DNA of 64,000 nt. It comes from Phormidium sp. FACHB-1136. GTDB taxonomy: Bacteria; Cyanobacteriota; Cyanobacteriia; Phormidesmidales; Phormidesmidaceae. Below the pieces are notes generated by a model. That model was given only the letters and a program-made list of their open reading frames with translations. It searched no databases and was not told the origin of the DNA. A program made the position numbers and the translations under genes. The stretch is from positions 1-64,000 of the forward strand of contig NZ_JACJRS010000021.1 of assembly GCF_014697375.1 (NCBI RefSeq). The letters run 5' to 3'. Positions 20,056 through 44,215 of the stretch are shown here, piece by piece (the first letter of the stretch is position 1; every line of letters starts with the position of its first letter).

Positions 20056-20432
20056 GGGTGAAGGGGAGGAGATTGGAAGATAGACCTCGTAGCTCTACCC
20101 TAACCCCTCAGCATTGAGAAGAACCGTGAAACCAGGACAGTTTGGGGGGCGCATACCGAGAGTGACACCTACACCCAACCCGCATTAGACAACTCCGTTT
20201 CCCCATCCGTCAAACCCTAGGGGCAAAGTTTCCTCGCCCGCTTGAACCGAGGGCACACAAGACGGATTTAGGATAATTCCGTATTTTTGCTGAGATTGTT
20301 TCATGAAACGTCTGGGAACTCTTGGAGGAAGAGCTTCTACCCGTTGATGCTAACGAGCTACTGGCTGGTCTGTTGAGCCTGTTTGGGTGGATGTTTCCTT
20401 AGACCGCAGTCCCTCTCCCTGAGACAAACCCC
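20056..20432. other. Intergenic region upstream of the two-gene membrane unit
   Basis: This 377-base divergent region lies between the acyltransferase and the 282-aa gene. A short frame ending at 20402 (ELLPVDANELLAGLLSLFGW) looks protein-like but has no good start after the stop at 20304, so it could be a gene remnant. No clear promoter or hairpin is seen. Confidence 0.35.
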
Positions 20433-21281
20433 ATGCTGAATCACAACGCCAAGAAGCAAGCCATTCAACGTCTGCAAGTTGCTCAGAAACAGTACGAAGC
20501 CTTGGTCGGTGACGTGATGAAACAGGCTCAAGCGCTGTTTGAGTTGCGCCAATCCACGGCTGAATCGGTAATTCAAGCCTGTGAGGACTACATCAATACC
20601 CTCGCGAACTCTCCCAGAGAATTTGACAAGTCGGTTACGGCATTCAAGGTGAGCTACCAAGAATTTACAAACCTGAGCCATCAAATCGAGGTTGAAGCCA
20701 AGCAACAAGCGGCGGTGCGTCAGTCCACCGTTGGGGCTGGGGTAGTCGCTGGAGCTGGGGTAGCGGCCCTCGGCCCATCTGCGGCCATGGTCATTGCTAC
20801 CACCTTTGGTACGGCCTCCACCGGAACAGCGATCTCTGCACTCTCTGGGGCAGCGGCGACCAATGCAGCACTGGCTTGGTTAGGGGGCGGTGCGCTGGCA
20901 GCAGGCGGTAGTGGCATGGTGGGTGGTCAGGCGCTACTTGCTTTGGCGGGGCCAGTGGGCTGGACAATTGGCGGTATCGCTGTGGCCGGGGGTGCCCTGT
21001 GGGCCAATGGCCAAAATGAAAAAGCGGCCCGACAGGCAACTCAATATACCCATGAATTGGAACTAGAAATCGGTAAGCTGAGAGTAGCGAAAGTAGAAGT
21101 CGATAGCCTGAAGAATCTCACAGAAAAACATGCTGACGGAGTGTTAGCACAGTTAGCGCTGCTAGAGGATGGTGCCCCCGCTGATTATCGCCAGTTTTCT
21201 ACTGACCAAAAACAAGCCTTAGCCGCATTGAACAATCATATTCAGTCGCTTGGCAAGCTCTTGAATCAAACAATTGCTTAG
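20433..21281 (+). CDS. Gly/Ala-rich membrane protein, first of an unknown pair
   Basis: I do not recognise this 282-residue protein. It has a helical, coiled-coil-like N-terminus (1-95), a central Gly/Ala-rich hydrophobic region (about 96-190) with small-residue zippers such as GAGVVAGAGVAALG and GPVGWTIGGIAVAGGALW, and a charged helical C-terminus (200-282). That arrangement suits insertion of a helical hairpin in a membrane. The next gene starts 12 bases downstream and also has a Gly/Ala-rich hydrophobic part, so the two are very likely co-expressed. Base composition is somewhat more AT-rich than the neighbours. A pore-forming or phage-defence effector role is speculation. Confidence 0.7.
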   Translation: MLNHNAKKQAIQRLQVAQKQYEALVGDVMKQAQALFELRQSTAESVIQACEDYINTLANSPREFDKSVTAFKVSYQEFTNLSHQIEVEAKQQAAVRQSTVGAGVVAGAGVAALGPSAAMVIATTFGTASTGTAISALSGAAATNAALAWLGGGALAAGGSGMVGGQALLALAGPVGWTIGGIAVAGGALWANGQNEKAARQATQYTHELELEIGKLRVAKVEVDSLKNLTEKHADGVLAQLALLEDGAPADYRQFSTDQKQALAALNNHIQSLGKLLNQTIA

Positions 21282-21293
21282 GATCTGGCAAAA

Positions 21294-22739
21294 ATGAAAG
21301 AGAATCACCATCAGACGACCCAGATTATTGGTAGTGTTGTTGCGGCCACGAATCAACAACGACTTGATGAGCTTCAGACAGCTTTAGGTACCCAGGGTAA
21401 AGCCCTTGTCGATGCCCTGGAGCAAATCCAAACCGTTCGAGAGTTCGTCGGTAGCCCGGAACATATCTTGGGAAATCCGTCCACCAAACATGGCGAGATT
21501 GCTGAGCAGGTAGAAGTAGGAATTCGGAACGCTAGAGATTTGATCAATCAGCGGCCCCCTATTGCCACGTTTGAGGGAATCAGTCGCATTGATCCAGCGG
21601 ACTATTCAATAGATGGCGTCCAGGTTCAATCTAAATTTATCAACGGGGTTACAAACGGCTTAGATCATGTTCTAGAGCACATGGATAAGTATGAAAACTT
21701 TGGGCGAGATGGCTCCTACTATCACATTCCCAAGGATCAATATGAGGTGATTCAAAAGGTTCTGAATGGTGAATCGGTCGATGGTCTCGCTCCAAGAACT
21801 GTTCGCGCTATTCAAGATCGTGTTCATGAAATTGAGCAAACGACTGGAAAATCCTTTAATACTGTTATTCAGCCCGGTGTATCGTCCTATGATGAAGTGC
21901 AGCAGGGAGAGATCCATAAAACCCTAGATCACCATGAAAACGACATCCGCAACCGTGATACTGAGCAGCAAAAGGTGATTGAGTTAGATCATCAAGCCAG
22001 CCTCAACGAGATGGCCCAAGTAGCACTCAAGGGGGCAGCAATTGGGGCGATTCTTAAGGTAACATTCAAGCTAGTTGAGAAAGTTACAAAAGAGAAGAAA
22101 AACCCGTTCAAGGGAGATTTTACTGCTGACGACTGGCAGGATATTGGCGTTTCTGCGGCCCAAGGCGGATCGACAGGAGCCGTATCGGGGTCTGCAATCT
22201 ACGCGCTGACAAATTTTGCTAATCTGTCAGCACCTCTTGCTGGGGCAGTGGTCAGTGCTGGCTATTCTGTAGCCAGTCTTGCTCAGCGGTATACTACGGG
22301 AGAAATCGGCTTCGATGAGTTCCTTTCCCTGGGTCAAATTGCCTGTGCTGAGTCTGCCATGGTCGCCGCTGGTGCCGCCCTTGGGCAGGCGCTTATTCCC
22401 ATCCCGATCATGGGGGCTATAATTGGCACCATTGCCAGCCGTATGGTAGTTGGTTATGGGAAGAAGTATCTAACGGGCAAGGCGAAGGAGCTAGAAAAAT
22501 GGCTGGAAGGCGACTATCAACGCTGGATGGCTCGAATTGATCACACCTATCGCACGTTGGTTGCTGAAATCTTGGCCAAGGTTGGCAAATTAAGCGATCT
22601 GATGGATGCGGCCTTTGACACCTCTAAAAATATGGCGCTTAGGCTGGAAGCCAGTATCGATTTGGCCAGAGCCTTTGAGGTGCCCGAGGAGCAAATTATT
22701 CACGACCTGGATGAACTGGATGCCTTCATTCTGGCCTAG
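21294..22739 (+). CDS. Large membrane-associated protein, second of an unknown pair
   Basis: I cannot name this 481-residue protein. Residues 1-95 are helical. A soluble domain follows at about 95-175 (DPADYSIDGVQVQSKFINGV, YHIPKDQYEVIQKVLNGE). A charged helical linker comes next, then a Gly/Ala-rich hydrophobic region at about 240-390 (ALKGAAIGAILKV, GSTGAVSGSAIYAL, IMGAIIGTIASRMVVGYG), and a helical tail. The hydrophobic part resembles the preceding gene product in style, not sequence. It starts 12 bases after that gene and ends before the convergent tadA. The plan suggests a membrane-targeted complex with its partner. Confidence 0.7.
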   Translation: MKENHHQTTQIIGSVVAATNQQRLDELQTALGTQGKALVDALEQIQTVREFVGSPEHILGNPSTKHGEIAEQVEVGIRNARDLINQRPPIATFEGISRIDPADYSIDGVQVQSKFINGVTNGLDHVLEHMDKYENFGRDGSYYHIPKDQYEVIQKVLNGESVDGLAPRTVRAIQDRVHEIEQTTGKSFNTVIQPGVSSYDEVQQGEIHKTLDHHENDIRNRDTEQQKVIELDHQASLNEMAQVALKGAAIGAILKVTFKLVEKVTKEKKNPFKGDFTADDWQDIGVSAAQGGSTGAVSGSAIYALTNFANLSAPLAGAVVSAGYSVASLAQRYTTGEIGFDEFLSLGQIACAESAMVAAGAALGQALIPIPIMGAIIGTIASRMVVGYGKKYLTGKAKELEKWLEGDYQRWMARIDHTYRTLVAEILAKVGKLSDLMDAAFDTSKNMALRLEASIDLARAFEVPEEQIIHDLDELDAFILA

Positions 22740-31829: not shown

Positions 31830-33353
31830 TCACGCCCGGTCATCGGCCAGGGTGATCCCCAAGGCCAAAAGCTGGGCCTTCGCCTTTTGCAGCGATTCGC
31901 GCCACTCCCGGTCGGGCTGGCTGTCGGCCACAATGCCCGCCCCTACCTGGCCCCACACCGTCGCGGGCTCCCCCGGATTCCCACCCTGACCCTTGCTATG
32001 GCCGTAGAGCAGCGTGCGAATCAGAATGTTCAAATCCAGATAGCCGCGCCGATCCAGATAGCCGCAGGAACCATAGAACAGACTGCGACGGACAGGCTCC
32101 AGGGCTTCGATGATTTCCATACAACGCACCTTGGGGCATCCGGTGATGGTGCCTCCTGGAAAGGCGGCTTGAATCAAATCCACCGCCGTTTTGTCCGGCA
32201 ACAACTGCCCCACCACATTGCTCACCAGGTGCATCACATGGCTGTAGTACTCCACCGTCAGCAGTTCATCCACCTGCACCGTGCCCCACTGGCAGACGCG
32301 CCCTAGATCGTTGCGCTCCAAATCCACCAGCATGATGTGTTCCGCCCGTTCCTTGGGGTTGCTGAGCAGGGTTTCGGCATAGGCGGCATCTTCGGCGGCG
32401 GTGTGCCCTCGCGGACGGGTGCCCGCAATGGGGCGCGTTTGGGCCTGATTTCCCCGCACCTGAATCAACCGCTCTGGGGAGCAGCTAATCACATCGCCCC
32501 AGGGGGTATGCCAGTAGCAGGCAAAGGGGGAGGGGTTGATGCGGTGCAACTGCCGATAGAGATCCCAGCTTGGGGCGGTGGTTTGGGTAGAAAACCGCAG
32601 GGAGAGATTCACTTGAAACACATCCCCCGCCTGGATATGCTGCTTGGCTTTGACCACGGCAGCTTGGTACTCCTCAGCCGTCATGCCTAGGGTAAGGGGG
32701 GATTTTGGATCCTGGGATCGCTGGGGATCGTTGCTTTGGGACGGGTCGGAATTTCGTAAATCTAGGGAATCCTGGCCTACAAGATCCCCTACTTTGCCAA
32801 CAAGACGGCCTAAGTCAGATTCGTCAGTGGCCGCTAACCAGAGCCGTTGTTCTGCATGATCCAATACTGCAAACGTGGCAGGTTCGTACCACAACGCCAC
32901 AGGAAAAGGGAGGGGATCAAGATTCTGGCTTGGCAATCGCTCAATTTCCCAGGCTAAATCGTAGCCCAGCCAGCCTAGCCAGCCCCCGGTAAACGGCAGC
33001 GTTTGCTCGGCTCGGCGGGCCTCATCACCGATCAGGTTTAGCGCTGATCTCCCCTGCAACCGTTGCGCGAGCATTGGCAGGATTTCACCCAAATCCGGTG
33101 TCCATAGTTGGGGTTGTCCATCCAAAAACCGAGGCGGGCCAGCGCAAATTGAGTAGCGACTGTGGGCCTGGTGGGGTTGGGCCAATTCTGGCAATGGGTA
33201 CGGACTTTCAAGCAGCACCGCCAAAGTCTCTAGACTGGGGGGCTGATCGAGTAGAGAACCGTAGAGGGCTTGGAAAATCTCGGTGCCTGTGCGCTGGTTG
33301 AGGGGCAGGGAGCGCAGGTGCCAGGGTTGGGGTTGGGGAGTGGGAGGGGTCAA
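31830..33353 (-). CDS. Anthranilate/aminodeoxychorismate synthase component I (TrpE/PabB family)
   Basis: The enzyme takes chorismate and ammonia to anthranilate or aminodeoxychorismate. The chorismate-binding domain is complete: GDVFQVNLSLRF, CSPERLI, PIAGTRPRG, DLERNDLGRVC, FPGGTITGCPKVRCMEII and GAGIVADSQPDREW. The N-terminal domain has an LLES motif and SRYSICAGPPR, as in TrpE-like proteins. The two activities are hard to tell apart from sequence, and no glutaminase gene is adjacent, so I give no symbol. It lies upstream-to-downstream behind ecfT on the minus strand, separated by a heptamer repeat. Confidence 0.87.
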   Translation of the reverse strand: MTPPTPQPQPWHLRSLPLNQRTGTEIFQALYGSLLDQPPSLETLAVLLESPYPLPELAQPHQAHSRYSICAGPPRFLDGQPQLWTPDLGEILPMLAQRLQGRSALNLIGDEARRAEQTLPFTGGWLGWLGYDLAWEIERLPSQNLDPLPFPVALWYEPATFAVLDHAEQRLWLAATDESDLGRLVGKVGDLVGQDSLDLRNSDPSQSNDPQRSQDPKSPLTLGMTAEEYQAAVVKAKQHIQAGDVFQVNLSLRFSTQTTAPSWDLYRQLHRINPSPFACYWHTPWGDVISCSPERLIQVRGNQAQTRPIAGTRPRGHTAAEDAAYAETLLSNPKERAEHIMLVDLERNDLGRVCQWGTVQVDELLTVEYYSHVMHLVSNVVGQLLPDKTAVDLIQAAFPGGTITGCPKVRCMEIIEALEPVRRSLFYGSCGYLDRRGYLDLNILIRTLLYGHSKGQGGNPGEPATVWGQVGAGIVADSQPDREWRESLQKAKAQLLALGITLADDRA

Positions 33354-33373
33354 GGCCGTTGGGAATGGGGAAT

Positions 33374-33415
33374 CGGGAGTCGGGAGTCGGGAGTCGGGAG
33401 TCGGGAGTCGGGAGT
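33374..33415. repeat. Heptanucleotide tandem repeat (cgggagt) x6
   Basis: Six perfect copies of the 7-base unit cgggagt, with degenerate copies before it (gggaatg, gggaatc). Short tandem heptamers of this kind (STRR) are typical of filamentous cyanobacteria. It lies in the 111-base gap between ecfT and the TrpE/PabB-like gene and close to the latter's start, so copy number could alter promoter spacing. Confidence 0.9.
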
Positions 33416-33464
33416 CGAGGAATTGGGCGCTGGTAGGGGCGAGGTGCCCTCGCCCAGATCTGAA

Positions 33465-34469
33465 TTAAAGGGTATTTTGCCCCCAGGATAGGCGCAGCCA
33501 CCAGAGGACGACCAGCAGACCTAGGGCGAACCAATCCCAGCGGCGCAAAATCAACTGATACCAGCGGACTTGGTGTTGGTTGGGGCTAGTGAAGCCACGG
33601 ACTTCCATGGCGGCGGCGATTTGTTCGGCTCGCAGCAGCAGGTTTTCGAGCAACCGTTCCACCACCGCCAGCCACACCTGGGCCGAGCCGCGTACCCCCA
33701 GTTTTTGCCAGTTAATCGCCCGTGTCTGTACAGATCGCACCAGGTTTTGCACTTCTTCTAATACCAGGGGAATGAACCGCAGGGAGAGCGTTACTGTTAG
33801 GGCAATTTCCGTCACCGGAACCCGAAACCAGCGCAGGGGCTTCATCAGGGCTTCTAGGGCCAAGGTGATTTCTTCGGGGGCGGTGGTCAGCAGATATAGG
33901 TTGGTGCCGTAGATCAGCGTAAATAATAGAGTACCCACCCGAATGCCCAAATCCAGGGATCGCCGGGTGACGGTAATCGGCCCCCACTGAAATACCACAA
34001 AGCGGTAGGCCGTGGGCTGGGGCAAGGGAGGAGCGGAGACTTCGGGATTAGGCTGATCCCCAGACGGGGATTCCCCCTGATTGTCAGGTTCTACGGCTGA
34101 TTGATCCCCCGATTCAGTCCCGGATTGCGTTTCCGATACGGCTGGGTTGAGCACTTCTGCCGGGGGCATTCGGTCGGGCTGGCTCACCTCCAGGCCATCG
34201 GGCATCACAAAGGTGAGTAGCATCACCGCTAAACTCAACAAGGCTAGCCAGCCCAACTGTTGCCGCCACACCCGGTAGGGAATGCGGGCGGAGATCGTCA
34301 GCACCAGCAGCAACCCCACCAGGGCAAAGCGCCACTGGGCATTGGCCAAAATGGGCGTTACCAAAATGCTCATCAGCCACACCATCTTGACCCTCGGATC
34401 CAGCCGATGCAGCCAAGTGACGGGCTGTTCTAAATAAAGACCAATGGGCAGGGAGCGAAGCAGATCCAT
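33465..34469 (-). CDS. EcfT/CbiQ-type transporter transmembrane protein
   Basis: The 334-residue protein has the T-component architecture: hydrophobic N-terminal helices with LHRLDPRVKMVWL, a poorly conserved acidic and Pro-rich loop (about 125-165), and C-terminal cytoplasmic helices with the coupling motif region (SLRFIPLVLEEVQNLVRSVQ and AMEVRGF). In ECF transporters it couples ATPase subunits to a vitamin- or metal-binding S component. No ATPase or S gene is adjacent, as is common in cyanobacteria, so the substrate is unknown. Confidence 0.88.
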   Translation of the reverse strand: MDLLRSLPIGLYLEQPVTWLHRLDPRVKMVWLMSILVTPILANAQWRFALVGLLLVLTISARIPYRVWRQQLGWLALLSLAVMLLTFVMPDGLEVSQPDRMPPAEVLNPAVSETQSGTESGDQSAVEPDNQGESPSGDQPNPEVSAPPLPQPTAYRFVVFQWGPITVTRRSLDLGIRVGTLLFTLIYGTNLYLLTTAPEEITLALEALMKPLRWFRVPVTEIALTVTLSLRFIPLVLEEVQNLVRSVQTRAINWQKLGVRGSAQVWLAVVERLLENLLLRAEQIAAAMEVRGFTSPNQHQVRWYQLILRRWDWFALGLLVVLWWLRLSWGQNTL

Positions 34470-34545
34470 AGGGCCGTTGCCAAGATGAGAGCAGGAAAAT
34501 TGACGAAATCAACAGGAAATTAAGGGGTTAGAGGCCAAGTCCTCG

Positions 34546-34641
34546 GCCCTCACCCCCAGCCCCTCTCCCAGGAGGGAGAGGGGGGCCGGAAGTTTTTCAA
34601 AGTCCCTCTCCCATTTTGGGAGAGGGATTTAGGGTGAGGGC
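34546..34641. repeat. 96-bp inverted-repeat element forming the ccs1 3' end
   Basis: Its termini gccctcaccc and gggtgagggc are perfect 10-base inverted repeats; inside are ctctcccag ... gggagagg-type palindromes. It is related to the core of the element at 16244-16353. The right half codes for the last 14 residues and stop of Ccs1 on the minus strand, so the repeat has been exapted as coding sequence. Confidence 0.75.
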
Positions 34642-36012
34642 TTCCGGGTCGTTTAGGGTGAGGGTCTTTGGGGCAGGGAGGGTTTCTAGGAGGGTGAGTA
34701 GTTCGCGCTCAAAGGCGACCTGGGCACGGTTGGTGCGGCCCCCCACGTAGAGAATGCCGTCCTGAACCAAGGCCCAGACTTGGGAGTGAGAGACGTAGCT
34801 CATCATCACCCCCAGCATCAACAGCCCAAAGCCTGCATAGACGAGGGGAATGCCGGGATCGGCTTTGATTTGCAGTCCGGTGCTGCCGATCACATCCACC
34901 AGACGCAGGGTGACGCCGTTGACGGTGGTGGCCATGCCAGATCGCAGGGTGGCGGTGAGTTGGCCGTCGTTGTCGTAGATGAGCGCGGTTCCCTGGAGGT
35001 CACGGGCGAGGAGGGTAACGCCTGTACTGAGGTCGGGGCTGGTGGGCACCCATGTTCCCCAAAAGCGGGGGCCGTTGGTATCGAGAAGCTGCATGGGCAG
35101 TTGTAGGACGGGGCTTTGGTTAAGCTGAATTTGCACCGCCGCAATGCCCCAATCGGCCTGGTAGAGGGTGACGCCTCGGTAGCGCAGGGGTTCGTTGACG
35201 TGGATGGTTTTGCGGTCTAGCTCCGTCCCCGCCGCATCCACCACCGAGAGGTCGGAATAAAACTGGTCGATGTTGCCGTCGGGGGTGTAATCAATCCAAA
35301 AGCGATTCACCCGTACCGCCCAATCCGTCGGGATTTGCGCCCTGGCCCATGGCCCCGCATCAAAAATGTTTTGAATCCGAAAGGTGTCGCCGCTGGGCAC
35401 AATTTCCTGGGCAAAAAATCCGGTCATCGCGCCCAGGATCGCCCCCAGCAAAATCAAAATCATGCTGGCATGGACGATAATCGGCCCAATGCGCCCGACG
35501 ATGCCCTTGCGTCCGTAGAGGGAGTCGCCTTCCTGAAACACTCGGTAGTGGCGTTTCCCCAAACTCGTCGCCAGGATGGCCAAATCCGCATCGGTGAGGC
35601 TGGTGCTGAGGGCCAGCTTTTGGAACTGGCGGGGCTGGGTGTAGTACTTCCAGCCTTGGGCCGCTCCTAGGGCAGGCAGTTGGCGGGTGAAGGTGCAGGC
35701 GGTGAGGCTGGCCCCAAACACGATCAGCAACGCCAAAAACCACCAGGTGCGATAGACATGGTCGAGGCCAAGGGGCAAAATCACCTTCCAACTGAGGAAG
35801 CCGAAGAGCGCCGGATCCTCTGGATAGTTGGTTTGGTAAAACTCTAGGGTTTGGCCCTGCTCTAGCACCGTGCCCGCAATGCTAAACAGGGCAATGGTCA
35901 GCAACAGCACAATCGCCAAGCGCAGATCCGCCAGCAGGGGCAGCAAGTCCTGCTTGAAATAGTGCCGCAACCCATGCCACAGCCCGGTCGGGGAAGCCTC
36001 AGAAGATGTCAT
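34597..36012 (-). CDS. ccs1: Cytochrome c biogenesis protein Ccs1 (ResB)
   Basis: Ccs1 (CcsB/ResB/Ycf44) works with CcsA in System II haem delivery to apocytochromes c on the lumenal side of the membrane. The protein has membrane segments near residues 30-50, 85-105, 175-200 and 405-425, with a large lumenal domain between the last two. Motifs [32 protein letters not shown] and [18 protein letters not shown] fit. The last 14 residues ([14 protein letters not shown]) come from a dispersed repeat. Its start codon lies at the very edge of an accessory region that separates it from ccdA, so its original promoter or operon link has been changed. Confidence 0.93.
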
Positions 36013-36051
36013 ACCGTCACGAATATATCTATAGACAACCTACCGCAATTC

Positions 36052-36254
36052 CAAACCGCTTGGCTGAAGCGCGTCAACGAGACATTAGCCGAGATCGACT
36101 CCAAGTACGATGCCTTGCGGCGCAAGTCCGGTATCAACTCGCCCCCACCGACGACCACCGACGAGAACTAGCCCTGGCCCTGGCCCAACTTGAGGAGTAT
36201 CAGCAGGTGTTGGATCGGGACTTGGCTGACAACGTTCCGCCATTTGACGGTTGA
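36052..36254 (+). pseudogene. Truncated copy 1 of the membrane/coiled-coil gene
   Basis: From about 36052 the sequence matches the C-terminal third of copies 2 and 3 (NRLAEARQRD ... ALAQLEEYQQVLDRDLADN), ending in the same PPFDG. The membrane part and most of the coiled coil are missing. A frame is open from an ATG at 36006, which overlaps the start codon of ccs1, but its first 16 residues are unrelated. It is best read as a remnant left by duplication and deletion at the island border. Confidence 0.75.
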
Positions 36255-36305
36255 GTGAGCCTTGGTCTTGGCCTAAAATCGGGCCACACAACACCTCACG
36301 TTAGA

Positions 36306-36803
36306 ATGGGACTATTCACCCGCCCCGTTTGGCTGAATTTTCTTTCCCTGCTGCCTGCCACCACCCTGGCGGTGCTGACCCTCGCCATTGCCTTTCTACG
36401 GTTCTACGATGTCCAAGATTTCCCCCTCCTCGGATTCATCGACCAACCCCGCCTTTGGAGCAACCGATTCACCGTGGCGGCCCTCTTGGCTACACTGGCT
36501 AATTTCGGCGTTGAGTGGAACCGTCGAAATCGAGAAACAAACCGCTTGGCTGAAGCAAGACAGCGAGAGGCTGAAGCAAGACAGCGAGAAGCTGAGACAA
36601 GAGAACGTGAGGCTGAAGCGCGTCAACGAGACCTTAGCCGAGATCGATGCCAAGTACGATGCCTTGCGGCGCAAGTCCGCTACCAACTCGACCCCACCGA
36701 CGACCACCGACGAGAATTAGCCCTGGCCTTGGCCCAGCTTGAGGAGTATCAGCAGGTGTTGGATCGGGACTTGGCTGACAACGTTCCGCCATTCGACGGT
36801 TGA
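36306..36803 (+). CDS. Two-helix membrane protein with coiled coil, copy 2
   Basis: The 165-residue product starts at MGLFTRPVWLN. It has two hydrophobic segments (about 9-32, FLSLLPATTLAVLTLAIAF, and 46-64, FTVAALLATLANFGVEW), then an Arg/Glu-rich helix built of four imperfect heptads (EAEARQR) and a C-terminal part RCQVRCLAAQVRYQLDPTDD ... LAQLEEYQQVL. A GTG directly after the previous stop (36255) opens the frame earlier, but that sequence is the spacer of the repeat. I do not know its function. Small proteins of this plan are known as hypothetical proteins in filamentous cyanobacteria. Confidence 0.65.
   Translation: MGLFTRPVWLNFLSLLPATTLAVLTLAIAFLRFYDVQDFPLLGFIDQPRLWSNRFTVAALLATLANFGVEWNRRNRETNRLAEARQREAEARQREAETREREAEARQRDLSRDRCQVRCLAAQVRYQLDPTDDHRRELALALAQLEEYQQVLDRDLADNVPPFDG
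36549..36632 (+). repeat. Four 21-bp heptad-coding units in copy 2
   Basis: Four imperfect units of the type gctgaagcaagacagcgaga follow one another (36549, 36570, 36591, 36612). Each codes for one heptad (A-E-A-R-Q-R-E) of the coiled coil. Copy 3 has a different unit make-up at the same place, so the tract appears to change by slippage or unequal exchange in steps that keep both frame and heptad phase. Confidence 0.75.
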
Positions 36804-36853
36804 GTGAGCCTTGGACTGGGCCTAAAATCGGGCCACAAAACCCCTCCGTTAGA

Positions 36854-37330
36854 ATGGGACTATTCACTCGCCCCGTTTGGCTGAATTTTCTTTCCCTGCT
36901 GCCTGCTACCACCCTGGCGGTGCTAACCCTCGCCATTGCTTTTCTACGGTTCTACGATGTCCAAGATTTCCCCCTCCTCGGATTCATCGCCCAACCCCGT
37001 CTCTGGAGCAACCGATTCACCGTGGCGGCCCTCTTGGCTACACTGGCTAATTTCGGCGTTGAGTGGAACCGTCGAAATCGAGAAACAAACCGCTTGGCTG
37101 AAGCAAGAGAACGCGAGGCTCGACGAGATCGCGAAGCAGCGGAAAGAGAGGCTGAAGCGCGTGAACGAGAAACTCGACGAGATCGATGCCAAATACGATG
37201 CCTTGCGGCACAAATCCGGCATCAACTCGACCCCACCAACGACCACCGACAAGCATTAGCCCTGGCCCTGGCGCAGCTTGAGGAGTATCAGCAGGTGTTG
37301 GATCGGGATTCAGCGCAGGATTCAATCTAA
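36854..37330 (+). CDS. Two-helix membrane protein with coiled coil, copy 3
   Basis: The 158-residue product is nearly identical to copy 2 in the membrane part (one Asp to Ala change at FI-D/A-QPRL). It has a rewritten coiled coil (EAREREARRDREAAEREAEA) and a different last few residues (DRDSAQDSI in place of DLADNVPPFDG). It is the last of the three tandem copies and lies 141 bases before the broken helicase-HNH gene on the same strand. Co-transcription with that gene is possible. Confidence 0.65.
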   Translation: MGLFTRPVWLNFLSLLPATTLAVLTLAIAFLRFYDVQDFPLLGFIAQPRLWSNRFTVAALLATLANFGVEWNRRNRETNRLAEAREREARRDREAAEREAEARERETRRDRCQIRCLAAQIRHQLDPTNDHRQALALALAQLEEYQQVLDRDSAQDSI

Positions 37331-37471
37331 TTGGTTAGAAAGAGAAGACATCCTTAATTTTCGTAACTCTACTTAGCTTCCACCAGAGAGTTTGTTAGAA
37401 CAGTAGAGGCTTTGGCCTTGCAACCGCCGTAGCTCCGTGCGGCTATCTCTCAACTCTCTAGGAGTACACCA

Positions 37472-40072
37472 ATGGGATACGTATCGCTCAATTTGGACGA
37501 GTTGAGAGAACAACGAGCTAACTACCCCCTCAGGCACCCTTTTCAGCACCAGATTGAATCCTTTGCAGCGTTGAATAAAACCTTCCGCTCTAATTCAGGC
37601 AAGACAGGTAGCGGGATTCTAGCCTTGCCCACCGGAGCTGGAAAAACCTTTACATCTGTAAAGTGGCTGATAGATCATGTTATTCCAAACAACATCAGAA
37701 TTCTCTGACTTGCTCCTTCCTTCTACCTGCTCGATCAAGCTTTCACAGAATTATATAACAACGCGCATGAGATTAGCTCTTCTAGGCAATATCTGAATAT
37801 CAGGCGTGTTTCTAGTAATTCTCACCATGCCCCAGCGTCATCCATCGAGTTGACTGATGACGTTATCATTATGAGCATCCCAACTGCCATTAGCAATTTG
37901 AACACTAATGCTCTAGATGGCTTTGGAAAAATTTGTAAAACAGCTCTCCGAGAATATGTAGAGCACTATCAAGATTCGGAATTCTTCGTAGTGATCGACG
38001 AGGCTCATCACTCTCCTGCCTATGGCTGTCGAAATTTATTGATTGGCAACTCAGAGTCTAAGCCTGGATTACGTACACTGCTGCCAAAGTCGCAGTTTCT
38101 AGGACTAACAGCCACTCCCACACATAATGACAGGGCTATTCGAGGTTGGCTATGGGATATTTTCAAAGATAAAGTCATTTATGAGGCTGAAAAAGCTACT
38201 CTAATTGCTCAGGGTATTTTAGCAAGACCTAACTATATAGAAGTCCCTACTGGGAAGAAGGTAGAAGTCGATGATAAGCTATTCTATAGCCTAACTAGGC
38301 AACATAAGGATCTGCCAGAGTCAATTATTGAAATTCTGGCTAGGGATAAGGATCGGAATAACCTAATTGTTAATGCCTATGTGAAGAACAAAGAGAAGTA
38401 TGGCAAAACCATCATTTTTGCCGACCGATGGTTTCAGTGTGTGTATTTAAAGGAAAAGCTGCTAGAGAAAGGCATTCAAGCAGATGCCATTTATTCCCAC
38501 ATTGGTGCTGATCCTGGTTCGGAAACAGGCTCTAATCAGCGCGATGCCAATAAGAACCAGAAAATTCTAGAACGCTTCAAGACTGGAAAGGATGAGTACG
38601 GCAATGACGCTCCATTAGATGTGCTAATCAACGTCAGAATGCTGACGGAAGGGGCAGATGTTCCTTCCGTGCGGACGGTCTTCTTAACGCGACAAACCAC
38701 AAGTTCGATCTTGATGACCCAAATGATAGGTCGAGCCTTACGCGGTGAAAAGGCTGGTGGCGGAAGTGAAGCCAATATTGTACTGTTCTTCGATGAATGG
38801 GAACGCTTAATCGATTGGGCGGTTCCAGACGGTGGTGATACTGTCGATAACAAGCCTTCGGTCAAGGGCTACTTTCCCCTCGAATATATTTCTATCTGTT
38901 TGGTAGAGGAACTCGCAAGGCATATCAAAAATCCTGATATTCCTCTTCCCCCATTTTCGGCCATCTTTCCTGTAGGTTGGTATCAGACGGATGTAGTCTA
39001 TGCCAATACAGACGGGCAAACAGACTCTATGGAGAGTTTCGTTGAGTTTGTCATGGCCTATGAGCACAACAAAGATAAGTTTGATGACTTTATTGAGTTT
39101 ATCTCTAATAACAAAAATCTTGATGATGAGTGGGCGAGAGAAGATCTATCAGAAAGTTGGTGCCAATCTCAAATAGAACCATGGGCTGCGCAATATTTTG
39201 ATTTAGAAGCAGACAACTTTGGCAATAAACTTTATGCCGATCTAGCCCGTCTTGTACGCCACGTTGCCCAAACTGAAGAAAAACCTTCCTATTACTCCTT
39301 TGCGGATCGATGGCGGTATAATCTAGACAATCTAGCAGAAGCCTGGACTGACTTAAGTTTCAAGACTTTAAAAGAAGAACTGAAAAAGGAATTCTCCAGT
39401 CCTGGATCGCTATGGAAGACGTTTTATAAAACCTTTAGTCGATTTGAAACAGCGGCCAGTGCGGCGATCATGAGAATCCTAGATAAAGAGACAGGTTCAC
39501 CGCCACCGACGACGCCACCGACGACGCCACCGCCACAGTCAACAAGTTTTACTCCAGAACAAAAAGCGCAAATTGTTCAAAGGGATGGCTATCGATGTCT
39601 TTGCTGCGGCATTGATGACCGAAGAGTAAGACTACAGGTTGATCACATTACGCCTCGCATGTTTGGTGGGCCGACTGTCATTGAAAATGGACAGTTGCTA
39701 TGCCAACCCTGTAATAGTACGAAATATGTGGGAACGCATGAAATAAACTTTAGGCAGACTCAATCCCCTCTGGAAAAATCTAAGGATAGAATTGAGTTGC
39801 AAAATTTACTTAGCAAGCCCAATAACGACAACAATCCTATTCGTAGCCTAACCAGGGTCATCAATATTTTCTACCACTGTCGAGCAGTGAAAGCTATTGA
39901 TTGTGATTTTACTAATCGAAGAAGCCCTCACTACTACGTGTGGACAATTCATCTCCATAAAGGAAACGATCCCGACTGGCTCTTATCCTGCAAAAATGAC
40001 CTGATAGCTGGCATCCACCAAAAGCTTGGCTGTGCTTATCTTCAAGATATTCAGATCTGTGTATCCGAATAA
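37472..40072 (+). pseudogene. DEAH helicase-HNH nuclease gene with one in-frame stop
   Basis: One frame of 866 codons is interrupted by a single TGA at codon 79 (37706-37708), where the context IRIL-stop-LAPSFYLLDQAF asks for Trp (TGG). Otherwise it is complete: Walker A PTGAGKT (K58), DEAH at about 176-179, LTATPTH, a C-terminal helicase domain with GADVPSVRTVFLTR and QMIGRALRGE, a Pro/Thr linker, and an HNH domain at about 700-765 (C-x2-C, VDHITP, CQPCNSTK). The helicase resembles the motor part of restriction-type enzymes. The DNA is strikingly AT-rich (one line counted at 38% GC) against GC-rich neighbours, which marks foreign origin. An ATG at 37850 could still give a protein without Walker A, so activity is probably lost. 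Confidence 0.85.
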
Positions 40073-40084
40073 TTTAGAACTTGT

Positions 40085-40333
40085 ATGACTCAACAAGATA
40101 AGCTTCTAGCCAAGATTCTGCGGGGAACTTCGGATGCCAATATCCCTTTTGATTCACTGTGTCAGCTTTTACAAACTTTAGGATTTGATGAGCGTATCCG
40201 AGGAAGTCATCACATTTTTTCAAAAGATGACATCGAGGAAATCCTCAACCTTCAGCCAAAGCAGGGAAAAGCGAAAGCTTATCAGGTTAAGCAAGTGAGA
40301 AACCTCATTTTGAAATATAGGTTAGGTAATTAG
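40085..40333 (+). CDS. hicA: HicA-type toxin
   Basis: The 82-residue protein matches HicA mRNA interferases: a small dsRBD-like fold with the catalytic histidine motif GSHHIF, followed by QVKQVRNLILKYRL. Such toxins cut mRNA and are held in check by HicB. Toxin-first order with the antitoxin starting one base after the stop is typical. It begins 12 bases after the helicase-HNH gene, so it may be transcribed with it. Confidence 0.88.
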   Translation: MTQQDKLLAKILRGTSDANIPFDSLCQLLQTLGFDERIRGSHHIFSKDDIEEILNLQPKQGKAKAYQVKQVRNLILKYRLGN

Positions 40334-40334
40334 C

Positions 40335-40547
40335 ATGGCCATTAAGTACGAACTCATTATCTACTGGAGTGAAGAGGATCAGTCCTGCATTGTGGAGGTT
40401 CCTGAATTACCCGGTTGTGCGGCAGATGGGGAAACCTATCAAGCAGCGGTGGCCAATGCCGAGGTTGTCATTCAAGAATGGATTGAAACCGCTCAAGCAT
40501 TAGGTCGTCCCATTCCTACGCCCAAAGGCCGTCTTCTGTTTGCCTAA
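40335..40547 (+). CDS. hicB: HicB-type antitoxin
   Basis: The 70-residue protein has the degraded RNase H-like HicB fold: IIYWSEEDQSCIVEVPELPGC, then ADGETYQAAVANAEVVIQEWIETA and the closing GRPIPTPKGRL. It neutralises HicA. There is no additional DNA-binding domain, so autoregulation would need another factor or the complex. It is the last gene before the ccdA side of the island. Confidence 0.92.
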   Translation: MAIKYELIIYWSEEDQSCIVEVPELPGCAADGETYQAAVANAEVVIQEWIETAQALGRPIPTPKGRLLFA

Positions 40548-40639
40548 CCCATAGGATACATTCGCGTCTTAAACCATTTTGGCTAATTTTAAGAGCAATC
40601 CCTTGGCCGCAATGCGCTGTCTATCCATCGCAAATCCAA

Positions 40640-41416
40640 TTACACCAAGCTCGACGGGACTAGGCGATTTAAAAGAGAAAACACCCCAAACACCAGCAAC
40701 ACTACACCGCTGGCGGGGGTAATCCAGCTTGACCACTGGCGTAGGGAGAGCAGGCGCTTGAGGGTGGAGGTGAAGGTGCCCGCCAGCACCAGGGGCGTTA
40801 CGTAGCCCACGGCATAGGCCAACAGAAAGGCACTGCCTAGGAGGGGGTTTTGGGTGGCGGAAATCCAGGCCAACAGCGTTGCTAAAACTGGGGTGCTGCA
40901 CGGGGATGCCACAATACCGAAGGTCAACCCCAGGGCGTAGGCTTTCAGCCAGGGGGGCAGGTTCCACTGGCTGGCATCGAGATTGCCCAGGCTGGGTAGG
41001 GCGAGGGGTAACACTCCCAGCAAATTCAGCCCCATCACAATGGCAACGGCGCTGACCACCAGCGGCAGACCAATGGCCACCTGACCATAGACATAGCCAA
41101 ACAGCCCCGCCACTAGACCCAAAACCGCCAGGGTGGTCGCCAGCCCCAGGGCAAAACCGAGGGAACGCAGAACGGATTCCTGGCGGGTGTCGCTGTCGTA
41201 GCCGCCCATGTAGCCCACCATAATCGGCAGCATGGACAGCAAACAGGGGGACAAACTGGTGAGTAACCCCGCCATCGCCACCACGGTCAAACTCATGGGG
41301 GAAACGTGGGTGAGTTGGGCATTCACCAACTGGTTGGCCCACTGGCTGAGGTCGTATAGATAAAGCTGGAGGCTCTCGAACATTCCGGGGGCAGGCACAA
41401 AAACAGCGATCCCCAT
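40640..41416 (-). CDS. ccdA: Cytochrome c biogenesis protein CcdA
   Basis: CcdA carries reducing equivalents across the thylakoid or plasma membrane to keep haem-binding cysteines of apocytochrome c reduced. The six-helix protein has the two conserved cysteines in SLSPCLLSMLP and ASPCSTPVLATLL, each in the helix-breaking Pro-Cys setting. The start at 41416 is 9 bases after the stop of the upstream coiled-coil gene, so they may be co-transcribed; a second ATG at 41383 (MFESLQLYL) is possible. ccs1, often its neighbour, lies 4.6 kb away beyond the accessory genes. Confidence 0.93.
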   Translation of the reverse strand: MGIAVFVPAPGMFESLQLYLYDLSQWANQLVNAQLTHVSPMSLTVVAMAGLLTSLSPCLLSMLPIMVGYMGGYDSDTRQESVLRSLGFALGLATTLAVLGLVAGLFGYVYGQVAIGLPLVVSAVAIVMGLNLLGVLPLALPSLGNLDASQWNLPPWLKAYALGLTFGIVASPCSTPVLATLLAWISATQNPLLGSAFLLAYAVGYVTPLVLAGTFTSTLKRLLSLRQWSSWITPASGVVLLVFGVFSLLNRLVPSSLV

Positions 41417-41425
41417 TGTAGCGAT

Positions 41426-43285
41426 TTAGCTCAGGTTGCCCCAATCCTCATCCCTGAAGTCGGTGGATTCACCCTCGGCGGTGGAGGAATCGGGTTGGTT
41501 CAGGAGGTTGTTGAGTTCGCCCAAATCCACTCCGGCCTTCTGGGCTAGGGTTTCGAGGTTGAAGATGTCCTCGTCGTCCAGGTTGCCTAGGGCCAGATCG
41601 TCATCGGACAGGGCCGATAGATCGAGGTCGTCCAGGTTGAAGGCAGAATCGATGTCTGCGGTGGAATTATCCCCCTCCGTGGATGTTTCTGGCCAAGGGT
41701 TGTCTGGGGGATCCACCACGGCTGAGTCTTCAAAGGTCAAGTTATCCAATCCTGAGTCCTCAAATCCTGAATCCTCAAATCCTGAATCCTCAAATCCTGA
41801 ATCCTCAAACGCCAAGTCCTCCGAACCGTCGTCGTCTAAATCCAAGGGAACCTCGCCAAAAGGATCTTCACCGAAGGGATCCTCCCCGATGCTGTCTGGA
41901 TCCGCATCATTCTGGTCAAACCTGCCATCGTCAGCAGAGTCCATGCTGGAATCGGCCCAGGCGACATCCCCAGCTAGGTCAGCACCCGGTTCTCCTAGGG
42001 TAGGGCCAGCGTCATCGACGAAAGCCGTGGCGGCTGGATCGGCCCCCAAGTCTGGGAAGGGGGCCGTATCAAAGCCTTCCTCCCCTAGGGCTTCTGCCTC
42101 AACGGCAGTGTCCACAAAGGGATCCATCGTGGCCATGAGTCCGTCTTGAAAATCCTGGGCACGTTGGTCGAAATCCATCTGAACCTGGGTCAGCTTTTCC
42201 GCCAGTTGCAGGTCGTATTCGGCCCGCAGTTCGGTTTCAAGCTGCTGGCGTAGGGAGTCCTCATCATCTGGGGTGTTGGCATCTCCCTCATCTCCCCCGT
42301 CCTGGGCCATCTGGAGCCTAGCTTCGTAGTCTTCGGTAAGGGCTTGGATCCGTTCGGTCAGATCATCTTGGTGACGGGCGACCGCCTCCGCCAGCCGTCG
42401 ATCATACTCGGCCTGAAATCGGGCTTCAAGATCGGCATTGGCAGGCAGATCGAGGGACGGGGGCTCATCGGCGGGCTGAGCGGCCTGGGCCATTTGTAGG
42501 CGGGCGGCAAATTCCTGCTCTAGCTGGGCGATGCGTTGGGACATTTCATCCTGGTATTGCTCAATGCGCTCGGCTAAGCGACGGTCGTAGGCGGTGCGCA
42601 GTTCAGCCTCCAGGGTGGCGAGGCGATCTTGCATCTGGGTTTCATCCACCAGGCCAGCCCCCTGTCCATTGACCTCGGCTTGGGCCACCAAACCCTGTTC
42701 CTGAAGGGCATCGGCAAGGCGGGCGTCGGCTTCGTCCTGGTAGTGGGCGATGGCGTCGGCAAGGCGTTGGTCATAGTCCCGCTGCTGGGCGTCGCGCTCG
42801 GTGGCAAGGGTCTCCCGCAGGTGTTGCTCGTAGGCTTGCTGAATTTTGCGAGAATTTTCCTTCAGGCGGGCTTCGTATTGTTGCCGCAACTGGGCCTCAT
42901 ACTCGCTGACAGGGGCCGTGGCCCAAGCCTCGGCGGGCAGGTTAGGATCCTGGGAATCCAGGCCAGATCCTCCAGGGCTACCGGGCACTAGGTTCTGGCG
43001 GGCTTCGTATTCCGCCTCAAGCTGCTGGCGTTGGGCCTCGTACTGACGCTGATAGCGTTCGATCTTGTCCGCCAGTTGGGCCTCGTAGTCCTGCTGAAGT
43101 TGGGCCGTGGCGGTGCGTAGGCGTTCCTCATGATCCCGCTGCAAGATCGGCTCTCGATCCTGGCTCGTTTTGAGGGCCGCCGCCAGTGCATTAATCCGGC
43201 TTTGGCGGAGGTAAAACCCAACAGTGATGCCGACCAGCAAGCTGATCAGCAGCCCAATAATCATGCCTTGCATTGCTTGCGGCAT
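41426..43285 (-). CDS. Membrane-anchored acidic coiled-coil protein
   Basis: The 619-residue protein has one N-terminal membrane helix (about 8-26, IIGLLISLLVGITVGFYL), a long coiled coil (30-365) made of a recurring motif of the type YDxRLAExIxxYQDE, and an acidic tail rich in Asp, Glu and Ser with tandem FEDSG and EDPFGE units. I do not recognise a family. The layout suggests a membrane-tethered scaffold. It lies directly upstream of ccdA on the same strand. Confidence 0.75.
   Translation of the reverse strand: MPQAMQGMIIGLLISLLVGITVGFYLRQSRINALAAALKTSQDREPILQRDHEERLRTATAQLQQDYEAQLADKIERYQRQYEAQRQQLEAEYEARQNLVPGSPGGSGLDSQDPNLPAEAWATAPVSEYEAQLRQQYEARLKENSRKIQQAYEQHLRETLATERDAQQRDYDQRLADAIAHYQDEADARLADALQEQGLVAQAEVNGQGAGLVDETQMQDRLATLEAELRTAYDRRLAERIEQYQDEMSQRIAQLEQEFAARLQMAQAAQPADEPPSLDLPANADLEARFQAEYDRRLAEAVARHQDDLTERIQALTEDYEARLQMAQDGGDEGDANTPDDEDSLRQQLETELRAEYDLQLAEKLTQVQMDFDQRAQDFQDGLMATMDPFVDTAVEAEALGEEGFDTAPFPDLGADPAATAFVDDAGPTLGEPGADLAGDVAWADSSMDSADDGRFDQNDADPDSIGEDPFGEDPFGEVPLDLDDDGSEDLAFEDSGFEDSGFEDSGFEDSGLDNLTFEDSAVVDPPDNPWPETSTEGDNSTADIDSAFNLDDLDLSALSDDDLALGNLDDEDIFNLETLAQKAGVDLGELNNLLNQPDSSTAEGESTDFRDEDWGNLS
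41755..41812. repeat. 15-bp tandem repeat coding for FEDSG units
   Basis: About four copies of the unit aatcctgaatcctca (first copy with gag in place of gaa) stand in tandem. On the minus strand they code for repeated F-E-D-S-G. Copy number changes would keep the frame. Confidence 0.8.
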
Positions 43286-43390
43286 TGCGCCTCTCCCAAT
43301 TCAACCAAGCCCAGGCCCAGCCCACCTGAGCCTGCCTGGGAAACACTAGAGCCTAGAGAGCGTTTGTCGGCACCCCTAAACTTGACGATA

Positions 43391-44215
43391 ATGATATACG
43401 CTGCGCCCCATTTGCGCGATTCAATCTTCTCGGAACTCTCATCGGCCCTACCCCCCATGCGCGATACCACCCTCAACGCCATTGCCGTCGTCATCTTTGG
43501 CATGACCATGGCCAGCCTACTTGGCCCCCTCGTCCACCTGTCCCCGGCCCTAGTGGCAGGGGTAGCGGCAACCGGGCTGGGGGTGTTCACCCTCGATCAA
43601 CTCAACCTCCAAGGGCGTATCGGCAACCTGATCACCGATGGGCTGGCCTGGTTTTCCCCAGTGCATCGGCAGCGGGTGACGTACCACGAAGCCGGACACC
43701 TGCTAACGGCAATTCTGCTGGATATTCCCGTCCAAGGCTACACCCTCACCACCTGGGGGGCGTGGCGGCAAGGGCTACCGGGGCAGGGCGGCATCATCTT
43801 TGGGTTTGGGGATAACTTCAACGATAGGCTACCCAATGCCCTGACGCCCCAATGGCTCGACCGCTACAGCCAGGTGTGGATGGCGGGTCTAGCGGCGGAA
43901 CAAATGGTCTACGGCGATGCCCTGGGTGGCGATGGCGATGTGCAAGCGTTGCGGCAGCTTTGGCGCGGGTTGGGTAAATCCGACCTAGAGGCCACCGTGA
44001 AACAGCGCTGGGCCACCCTCCAAGCCAAAACCCTGCTCGAAAAACACCGAGACGCCTTGGATGCCCTTGTCAACGCCATGGCCAAACGGGCCTCGGTAGA
44101 CACCTGTCGCGAGTTGGTGCGGCGCACCTGTGCTGAGTTTTTAGCTGAGTTTGACGACGGCTTGGTTGGCCATCAGGGTATCCCCGGTCAAAATGTCTTC
44201 GACGGTGATGCGTAA
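43391..44215 (+). CDS. M41 (FtsH-like) peptidase without AAA domain
   Basis: The protein has two or so hydrophobic N-terminal segments and then an FtsH-type zinc peptidase motif, HEAGH, in VTYHEAGHLLTAILL, followed by WMAGLAAEQMVYGDALGGDGD, which fits the third zinc ligand region. There is no AAA ATPase domain, so it cannot unfold substrates as FtsH does. Such stand-alone relatives occur in cyanobacteria and plastids. The frame is open from 43130, but starts at 43391 or 43457 (MRDTTLNAIAVV) fit better. Its 3' end overlaps the convergent Hsp70-like gene by 75 bases. Confidence 0.8.
   Translation: MIYAAPHLRDSIFSELSSALPPMRDTTLNAIAVVIFGMTMASLLGPLVHLSPALVAGVAATGLGVFTLDQLNLQGRIGNLITDGLAWFSPVHRQRVTYHEAGHLLTAILLDIPVQGYTLTTWGAWRQGLPGQGGIIFGFGDNFNDRLPNALTPQWLDRYSQVWMAGLAAEQMVYGDALGGDGDVQALRQLWRGLGKSDLEATVKQRWATLQAKTLLEKHRDALDALVNAMAKRASVDTCRELVRRTCAEFLAEFDDGLVGHQGIPGQNVFDGDA

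Follow-up and report, generated by a model that had tools for sequence, protein, structure and literature searches.

SauUSI, a type IV restriction enzyme, recognises modified DNA, translocates with ATP and cuts; it carries a PLD nuclease at its N-terminus and an SRA-fold domain at its C-terminus, as described in the consulted part of PMC7913695. We compared with this and other known systems a helicase-HNH gene of the window, that is, the whole 64,000-nucleotide stretch of DNA analysed here. When a profile of the helicase-HNH family was matched against solved structures, SauUSI (7clg) was the best match (2.1e-29, positions 22-478), while the window protein alone matched SauUSI at 8.9e-6 only. 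In both, a single polypeptide holds an SF2 DExH translocase together with a nuclease, but the helicase-HNH family carries HNH after the motor and not an N-terminal PLD. Pfam matched neither a PLD/HKD nor an SRA domain in the helicase-HNH proteins at E <= 0.01, a search which a diverged recognition domain could escape. Since PLD is absent and SRA unmatched, the family is not a SauUSI member; by analogy, it may work like SauUSI.

Next among the solved structures matched by the profile came RadD, a DNA repair helicase (PDB 6jde, 2.6e-20). The likeness lies in the helicase, whereas the HNH and C-terminal parts fall outside the match, and the RadD NCBIfam match to the window protein is weak (9.9e-8, far below cut-off). 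PbeA, an HKD nuclease-SF2 helicase which acts with PbeBCD according to the excerpts of PMC10853773 used here, resembles the family in its helicase core but has an HKD nuclease, which the helicase-HNH family does not. PADLOC models of PbeA matched the helicase core of four intact relatives (best 1e-17 to 1.1e-27); however, the match is not specific, because the same models match an ordinary HsdR (3.8e-21), and the PADLOC-type matches listed covered the helicase core or the HNH part, never the whole protein. HsdR and type III Res subunits share the ResIII and Helicase_C domains with the family, but the window unit is without a methyltransferase or specificity gene and its nuclease is HNH. ZRANB3 likewise joins a motor and an HNH domain in a single chain, in the order motor, HNH, and its HNH domain matches family-profile positions 718-757 (1.3e-6). 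It is, unlike the helicase-HNH family, a eukaryotic replication-stress protein (PMC5481773, in the section available). The helicase-HNH family is not named in the consulted parts of PMC12839542, PMC7159879, PMC10853773 and PMC7913695, from which its absence from print is not implied.

Organization of the helicase-HNH gene

The features of the locus are collected in Table 1. The frame of the gene contains exactly one internal stop, a TGA, and after codon 79 it remains open for 787 codons up to a TAA. The start and Walker A lie 5′ of this stop, and the DEAH box, a TATP motif, a QMIGRALRG motif and the HNH domain lie 3′ of it. An earlier note on this DNA had reported one in-frame TGA at codon 79 with helicase and HNH motifs on both sides, and every coordinate that we checked was right; the position that it gave for the stop, between Walker A (residues 53-59) and the DEAH box, agrees with ours. 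We take the conserved motif around codon 79 to be helicase motif Ia. The Pfam ResIII domain was matched weakly 5′ of the stop (1.5e-4, 22.1 bits, slightly below the 22.5 cut-off) and at 22.9 bits 3′ of it. Past the HNH domain the long form of the protein has about 100 residues without Pfam match, and the shorter homologues without this extension are about 740-765 aa long. Read through the stop, the translation is 79% identical over residues 1-863 to the product of its closest relative, an unbroken gene in another genome of the same genus (G014). AlphaFold models of the read-through protein and three relatives had a mean pLDDT of 46.7, too low for a fold search.

Table 1. Features of the helicase-HNH locus and its surroundings, in window positions
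Feature	Positions	Strand	Basis or remark
Insert between ccs1/ResB and ccdA	36013..40639	.	GC windows and congeners; Pfam matches of flanking genes
Three tandem units (one truncated) of about 549 bp, with ORF	36006..37330	+	Without Pfam match
Leader common to window, G014 and C5 remnant; probable left end of mobile unit	37345..37471	+	
Helicase-HNH gene, 866 codons, broken by a single in-frame TGA	37472..40072	+	Frame; intact 79% relative in G014
Walker A, PTGAGKT	37628..37648	+	P53, T54, G55, G57, K58 and T59 invariant in relatives' alignment
In-frame TGA, codon 79, in conserved (I/V)(L/I)W(I/L/V)A motif	37706..37708	+	TGG in 24/24 covering stretches
DEAH box, residues 176-179	37997..38008	+	Frame and relatives' alignment
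Helicase_C, second RecA-like domain	38369..38743	+	Pfam PF00271, 8.3e-10
HNH nuclease domain	39596..39724	+	Pfam PF01844, 1.8e-10
C-terminal extension past HNH	39760..40069	+	Without Pfam match; missing from shorter homologues
HicA toxin gene, open frame	40085..40333	+	Pfam PF07927, 8.2e-6, 26.3 bits, slightly below 27-bit cut-off
HicB antitoxin gene, open frame	40335..40547	+	Pfam PF15919, 1.4e-8

Relatives and the tryptophan codon

The family is patchy in the class: with E <= 1e-50 and at most two candidates scored per genome, matches were found in 28 of 388 class genomes, and ten of these were helicase-only (frames of 534-547 aa) and were left out of the codon-79 and neighbour counts. We examined 26 relative stretches, from 21 same-class genomes, three genome records and two Deinococcus plasmids. 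Codon 79 is covered in 24 of them and is TGG in every one, including all six close relatives, in agreement with a TGA in place of Trp. The six are not six independent samples, as the copies of two of these genomes (G180 and G155) are 92.5% identical. None of the 24 is split at codon 79, and this removes the counter-hypothesis, raised in the earlier note, that the homologs are always split at this place.

Some relatives are damaged in other ways, and where codon 79 is covered none of the four concerned (G092, G283, G278 and G228) is broken at it. A TAA on contig C299 of G092 was considered as an internal stop and rejected, being the gene's own end. The relative in G283, a 74% complete draft, is interrupted by a stop within garbled sequence, and further on its frame is broken a second time. 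In G278 the gene is in two pieces at contig ends (L078/L079), and in G228 (L080) the C-terminal half only is present, at a contig end. The breaks in G278 and G228 fall at almost the same position of the gene, near contig ends, and insertion elements are possible there; at one break of G278 an IS1-type-like transposase sequence was noticed by eye.

A single-protein query found no relative in viral contigs. With an alignment query, at least 366 of 600 viral stretches held a relative; the best 80 match the helicase core only, none past query residue 489, and they were not used. Matches were present in 563 phage records, with none covering 80% of the query among the best 20 of the 563, and in 68 plasmids, two of which cover 80% of the query, both of them Deinococcus records. 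Going by gene content and the plasmid matches, the host of the window is probably a cyanobacterium.

The insert and its mobility

The unit lies between a ccs1/ResB gene (34597-36012) and a ccdA gene (40640-41416), both assigned by Pfam. In 500-base windows over the range 33000-44000, GC is 0.40-0.48 in 37250-40749 as against 0.55-0.63 outside, with 0.53 at the left edge of the low-GC stretch. A ccdA match was obtained in 23 of 26 same-genus genomes, and ccs1 adjoins ccdA in 21 of those 23. In the window genome the two genes are 4.6 kb apart and the gap holds the helicase-HNH gene and HicAB. G014, whose CcdA is 96% identical to that of the window, has no ccs1 within 3.2 kb beyond ccdA, and its helicase-HicAB unit lies at 4.135 Mb and its ccdA at 3.906 Mb of the same contig.

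Besides the window copy, our search of the same genome, with all 19 candidates scored, found only a decayed fragment, on contig C5, in which segments of residues 1-24 and 20-67 survive, and four other matches which were weak and partial (E >= 9.9e-5). One dead fragment is thus present in the genome together with the copy that carries the stop. The leader common to three sites, the different location in G014 and the decayed C5 copy together indicate that the unit moves.

Some further observations concern these regions. The C5 remnant (L029 6833-7282) lies downstream of a purH-like gene, carries a TGA at the Trp codon of residue 65 and is cut off beside an IS66-like transposase, both neighbours being recognised by eye. 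We considered whether UGA could be read as Trp, since codon 79 and C5 residue 65 are both TGA, and rejected this as the main reading, because truncation has already disabled the C5 copy and the tRNA search, with 150 of 200 candidates scored, gave none that reads UGA. In the tandem units left of the leader, the first is the truncated one, and long stretches are 94-96% alike. The ORF in them appears membrane- or coiled-coil-like by eye, and a second open frame on the same DNA appears coiled-coil-like; in G014 only the end of the ORF remains beside the helicase gene.

HicAB and neighbouring genes

HicA begins 12 bases past the helicase stop and is followed by HicB, exactly as the earlier note had it, and the homologues in G014 are 84% (HicA) and 91% (HicB) identical to those of the window. 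The note had further likened the locus to a restriction-like or defence cassette with HicAB. The domain make-up is indeed restriction-like, but the pairing with HicAB proved narrow: of 28 stretches, which include short ones, two have HicAB of the window type beside the helicase, and both are of one genus.

For the neighbour survey we scanned 30 chosen neighbourhood proteins. Close to long-form copies we found MazEF (G180), a Gp49-like toxin with an HTH gene, and PIN toxins (G155), RelB-like and TumE genes (G328) and a PIN gene (G032), and in G014 a PemK/MazF gene lies 0.9 kb beyond HicB. The presence of toxin-antitoxin genes near several long-form copies is suggestive only. No toxin-antitoxin match was obtained for the two neighbours tested in each of G057 and G234 or among the tested neighbours in G052, and the annotation of both Deinococcus plasmids contains no toxin-antitoxin gene. 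Restriction genes were also met: in G052 there are HsdR and HsdM-like methylase genes, of which the first starts about 2.3 kb from the helicase, and in G152 (L082 3243-4976) a related helicase is preceded, 58 bases upstream, by a GmrSD gene for type IV restriction.

Age of the stop

We compared the branches leading to the window copy and to the G014 copy, with a more distant outgroup of five copies, of which two share 92.5% identity. Residues that are otherwise invariant are changed at 10 of 318 positions in the window copy and at 11 of 320 in the intact G014 copy. The outgroup-polarised ratio of nonsynonymous to synonymous changes is 70:102 on the window branch and 76:96 on the G014 branch (Fisher p 0.59), and the pairwise dN/dS of the two copies is 0.088. 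The upper 95% limit of the odds ratio corresponds to at most about 3% of the window branch without selection, and at this bound 2.7 further nonsense changes would be expected where 0 were observed (P(0) 0.07); the bound is rough, because synonymous sites are near saturation (dS 1.56 versus G014) and polarisation was by parsimony. As the constraint on the remainder of the gene is unrelaxed, the stop must be young, and a prolonged death of the gene is unlikely because such constraint would have vanished. The proposal that the inactivation is very recent is thus supported, both by the similar ratios on the two branches and by the bound of about 3%.

Explanation of the stop

We consider it likely that the window copy is a recent loss by nonsense mutation, i.e. 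a pseudogene. In the course of events that we propose, the mobile unit, comprising the leader, the helicase-HNH gene and HicAB, would have come between ccs1 and ccdA, and later a single substitution in the helicase would have changed the conserved Trp codon to TGA. Translation would then end after 78 residues, just past Walker A, and for this reason no ATPase would form, while the remainder of 787 codons would be without a good restart site near its beginning. HicAB, being open, may explain the retention of the unit, and we infer that it serves as an addiction module. It is to be expected that restriction and defence genes are commonly lost through point mutations.

The codon may instead not be a stop at all and the gene may be intact, the TGA being an error of sequencing or assembly. 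The assembly is a draft of 260 contigs with a contamination estimate of 3%, and the rest of the gene looks constrained, as it would in an intact gene. Against this, the change is a substitution and not an indel, and no other gene of the window was found split by TGA. For this control we scanned the window for same-frame neighbour pairs, both with coding-like composition, and found seven, none of them split by TGA; the control is weak, since the helicase-HNH gene is itself absent from the list, its frame having an atypical coding composition for the 64-kb window. On this evidence we regard an error as rather unlikely. One of the seven pairs, at 20403-22739, reads as two consecutive same-frame ORFs with membrane-like segments by eye, and no Pfam match was obtained for these ORFs.

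It is highly improbable that the UGA is functionally read through, recoded or RNA-edited to give some full-length enzyme. Basal read-through of UGA is general, and constraint is present on both sides of the stop. However, since TGA occurs in 0 of 24 covering relatives, it is not a conserved recoding site. In the draft genome, with 150 of 200 candidates scored, we obtained 43 tRNA-family matches and 42 called tRNA genes; the only Trp anticodon among the 42 is CCA, and none is UCA. The called set is incomplete, as tRNA-Leu UAA is missing, and a UGA-suppressor tRNA in the genome is unlikely. No tRNA-Sec was above cut-off among 150 of 1033 candidates scored, and the six sub-threshold places coincide with called tRNA genes for Ser (four), Gly and Tyr. 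For SelB, nine matches were all below cut-off, the best with 173.5 versus 242.25 bits (14 of 14 candidates scored); in control genomes SelB was above cut-off in 2 of 14. The RNA stem at the stop is weak as well (-4 kcal/mol, 33 bases). The suggestion of a read-through site, made in the earlier note, therefore finds no support, there being no UCA anticodon among the 42 tRNAs and no SelB match that reached the cut-off.

The part after the stop might alternatively be a separate functional protein, an HNH nuclease with half a motor. Its frame is open and has been under constraint in the past, but the next 420 bases hold no good restart: of five in-frame start codons there, four are without a Shine-Dalgarno-like motif and the fifth, at 37991 (codon 174), has a bare GGA only as such a motif. 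As no relative is split at codon 79 either, we give this possibility very little credence. Least credible of all is a phase-variable or reversible switch with the stop as one state of an on/off system, as the earlier note had also envisaged: restriction genes are often phase variable, but a plain substitution is involved here, neither a repeat tract nor a tandem array was found near the stop, no inverted repeat pair is positioned to flip it, and the search for short repeats in the gene gave a single run, GTGTGTGT at 38437. Thus, with no support for a switch, recoding or restart, plain loss of the gene is favoured.

Role of the family and significance of the locus

Judged only by its domains and neighbours, the intact protein is rather probably a one-polypeptide, ATP-driven enzyme of restriction type, in which an SF2 translocase would track along foreign DNA for cutting by the HNH domain. 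Alternatively, the intact protein would be a helicase-nuclease of DNA repair and not a defence enzyme, for which speak the rank of RadD as second among the solved-structure matches of the profile, its weak NCBIfam match, and the match of the ZRANB3 HNH domain. The patchy presence of the family in the class, the mobile context with low GC and an empty site in congeners, and the type I restriction-modification or GmrSD genes near some relatives all argue against a repair role, which we hold to be improbable; this judgement concerns the role of the family and is not to be summed with those on the rival explanations of the stop. The unit is mobile and probably defensive, and the pseudogene is ordinary in kind. 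A broader picture, which we offer tentatively and regard as doubtful, is that the family would be a stand-alone defence enzyme, with SF2 translocase, HNH and a C-terminal domain of its own, which would move from site to site and which interchangeable toxin-antitoxin modules would keep in place, and that the window copy would be one just lost with its HicAB remaining.

The loss is caught early: a nearly undamaged gene can be compared here with an intact sister gene and with the empty site. The stop itself is ordinary, and the interest lies in the intact family. If its members do act in DNA restriction, SauUSI-like one-protein restriction would gain a version with HNH, and the changes of toxin-antitoxin genes from copy to copy would allow the idea that such a module keeps a defence gene to be tested.
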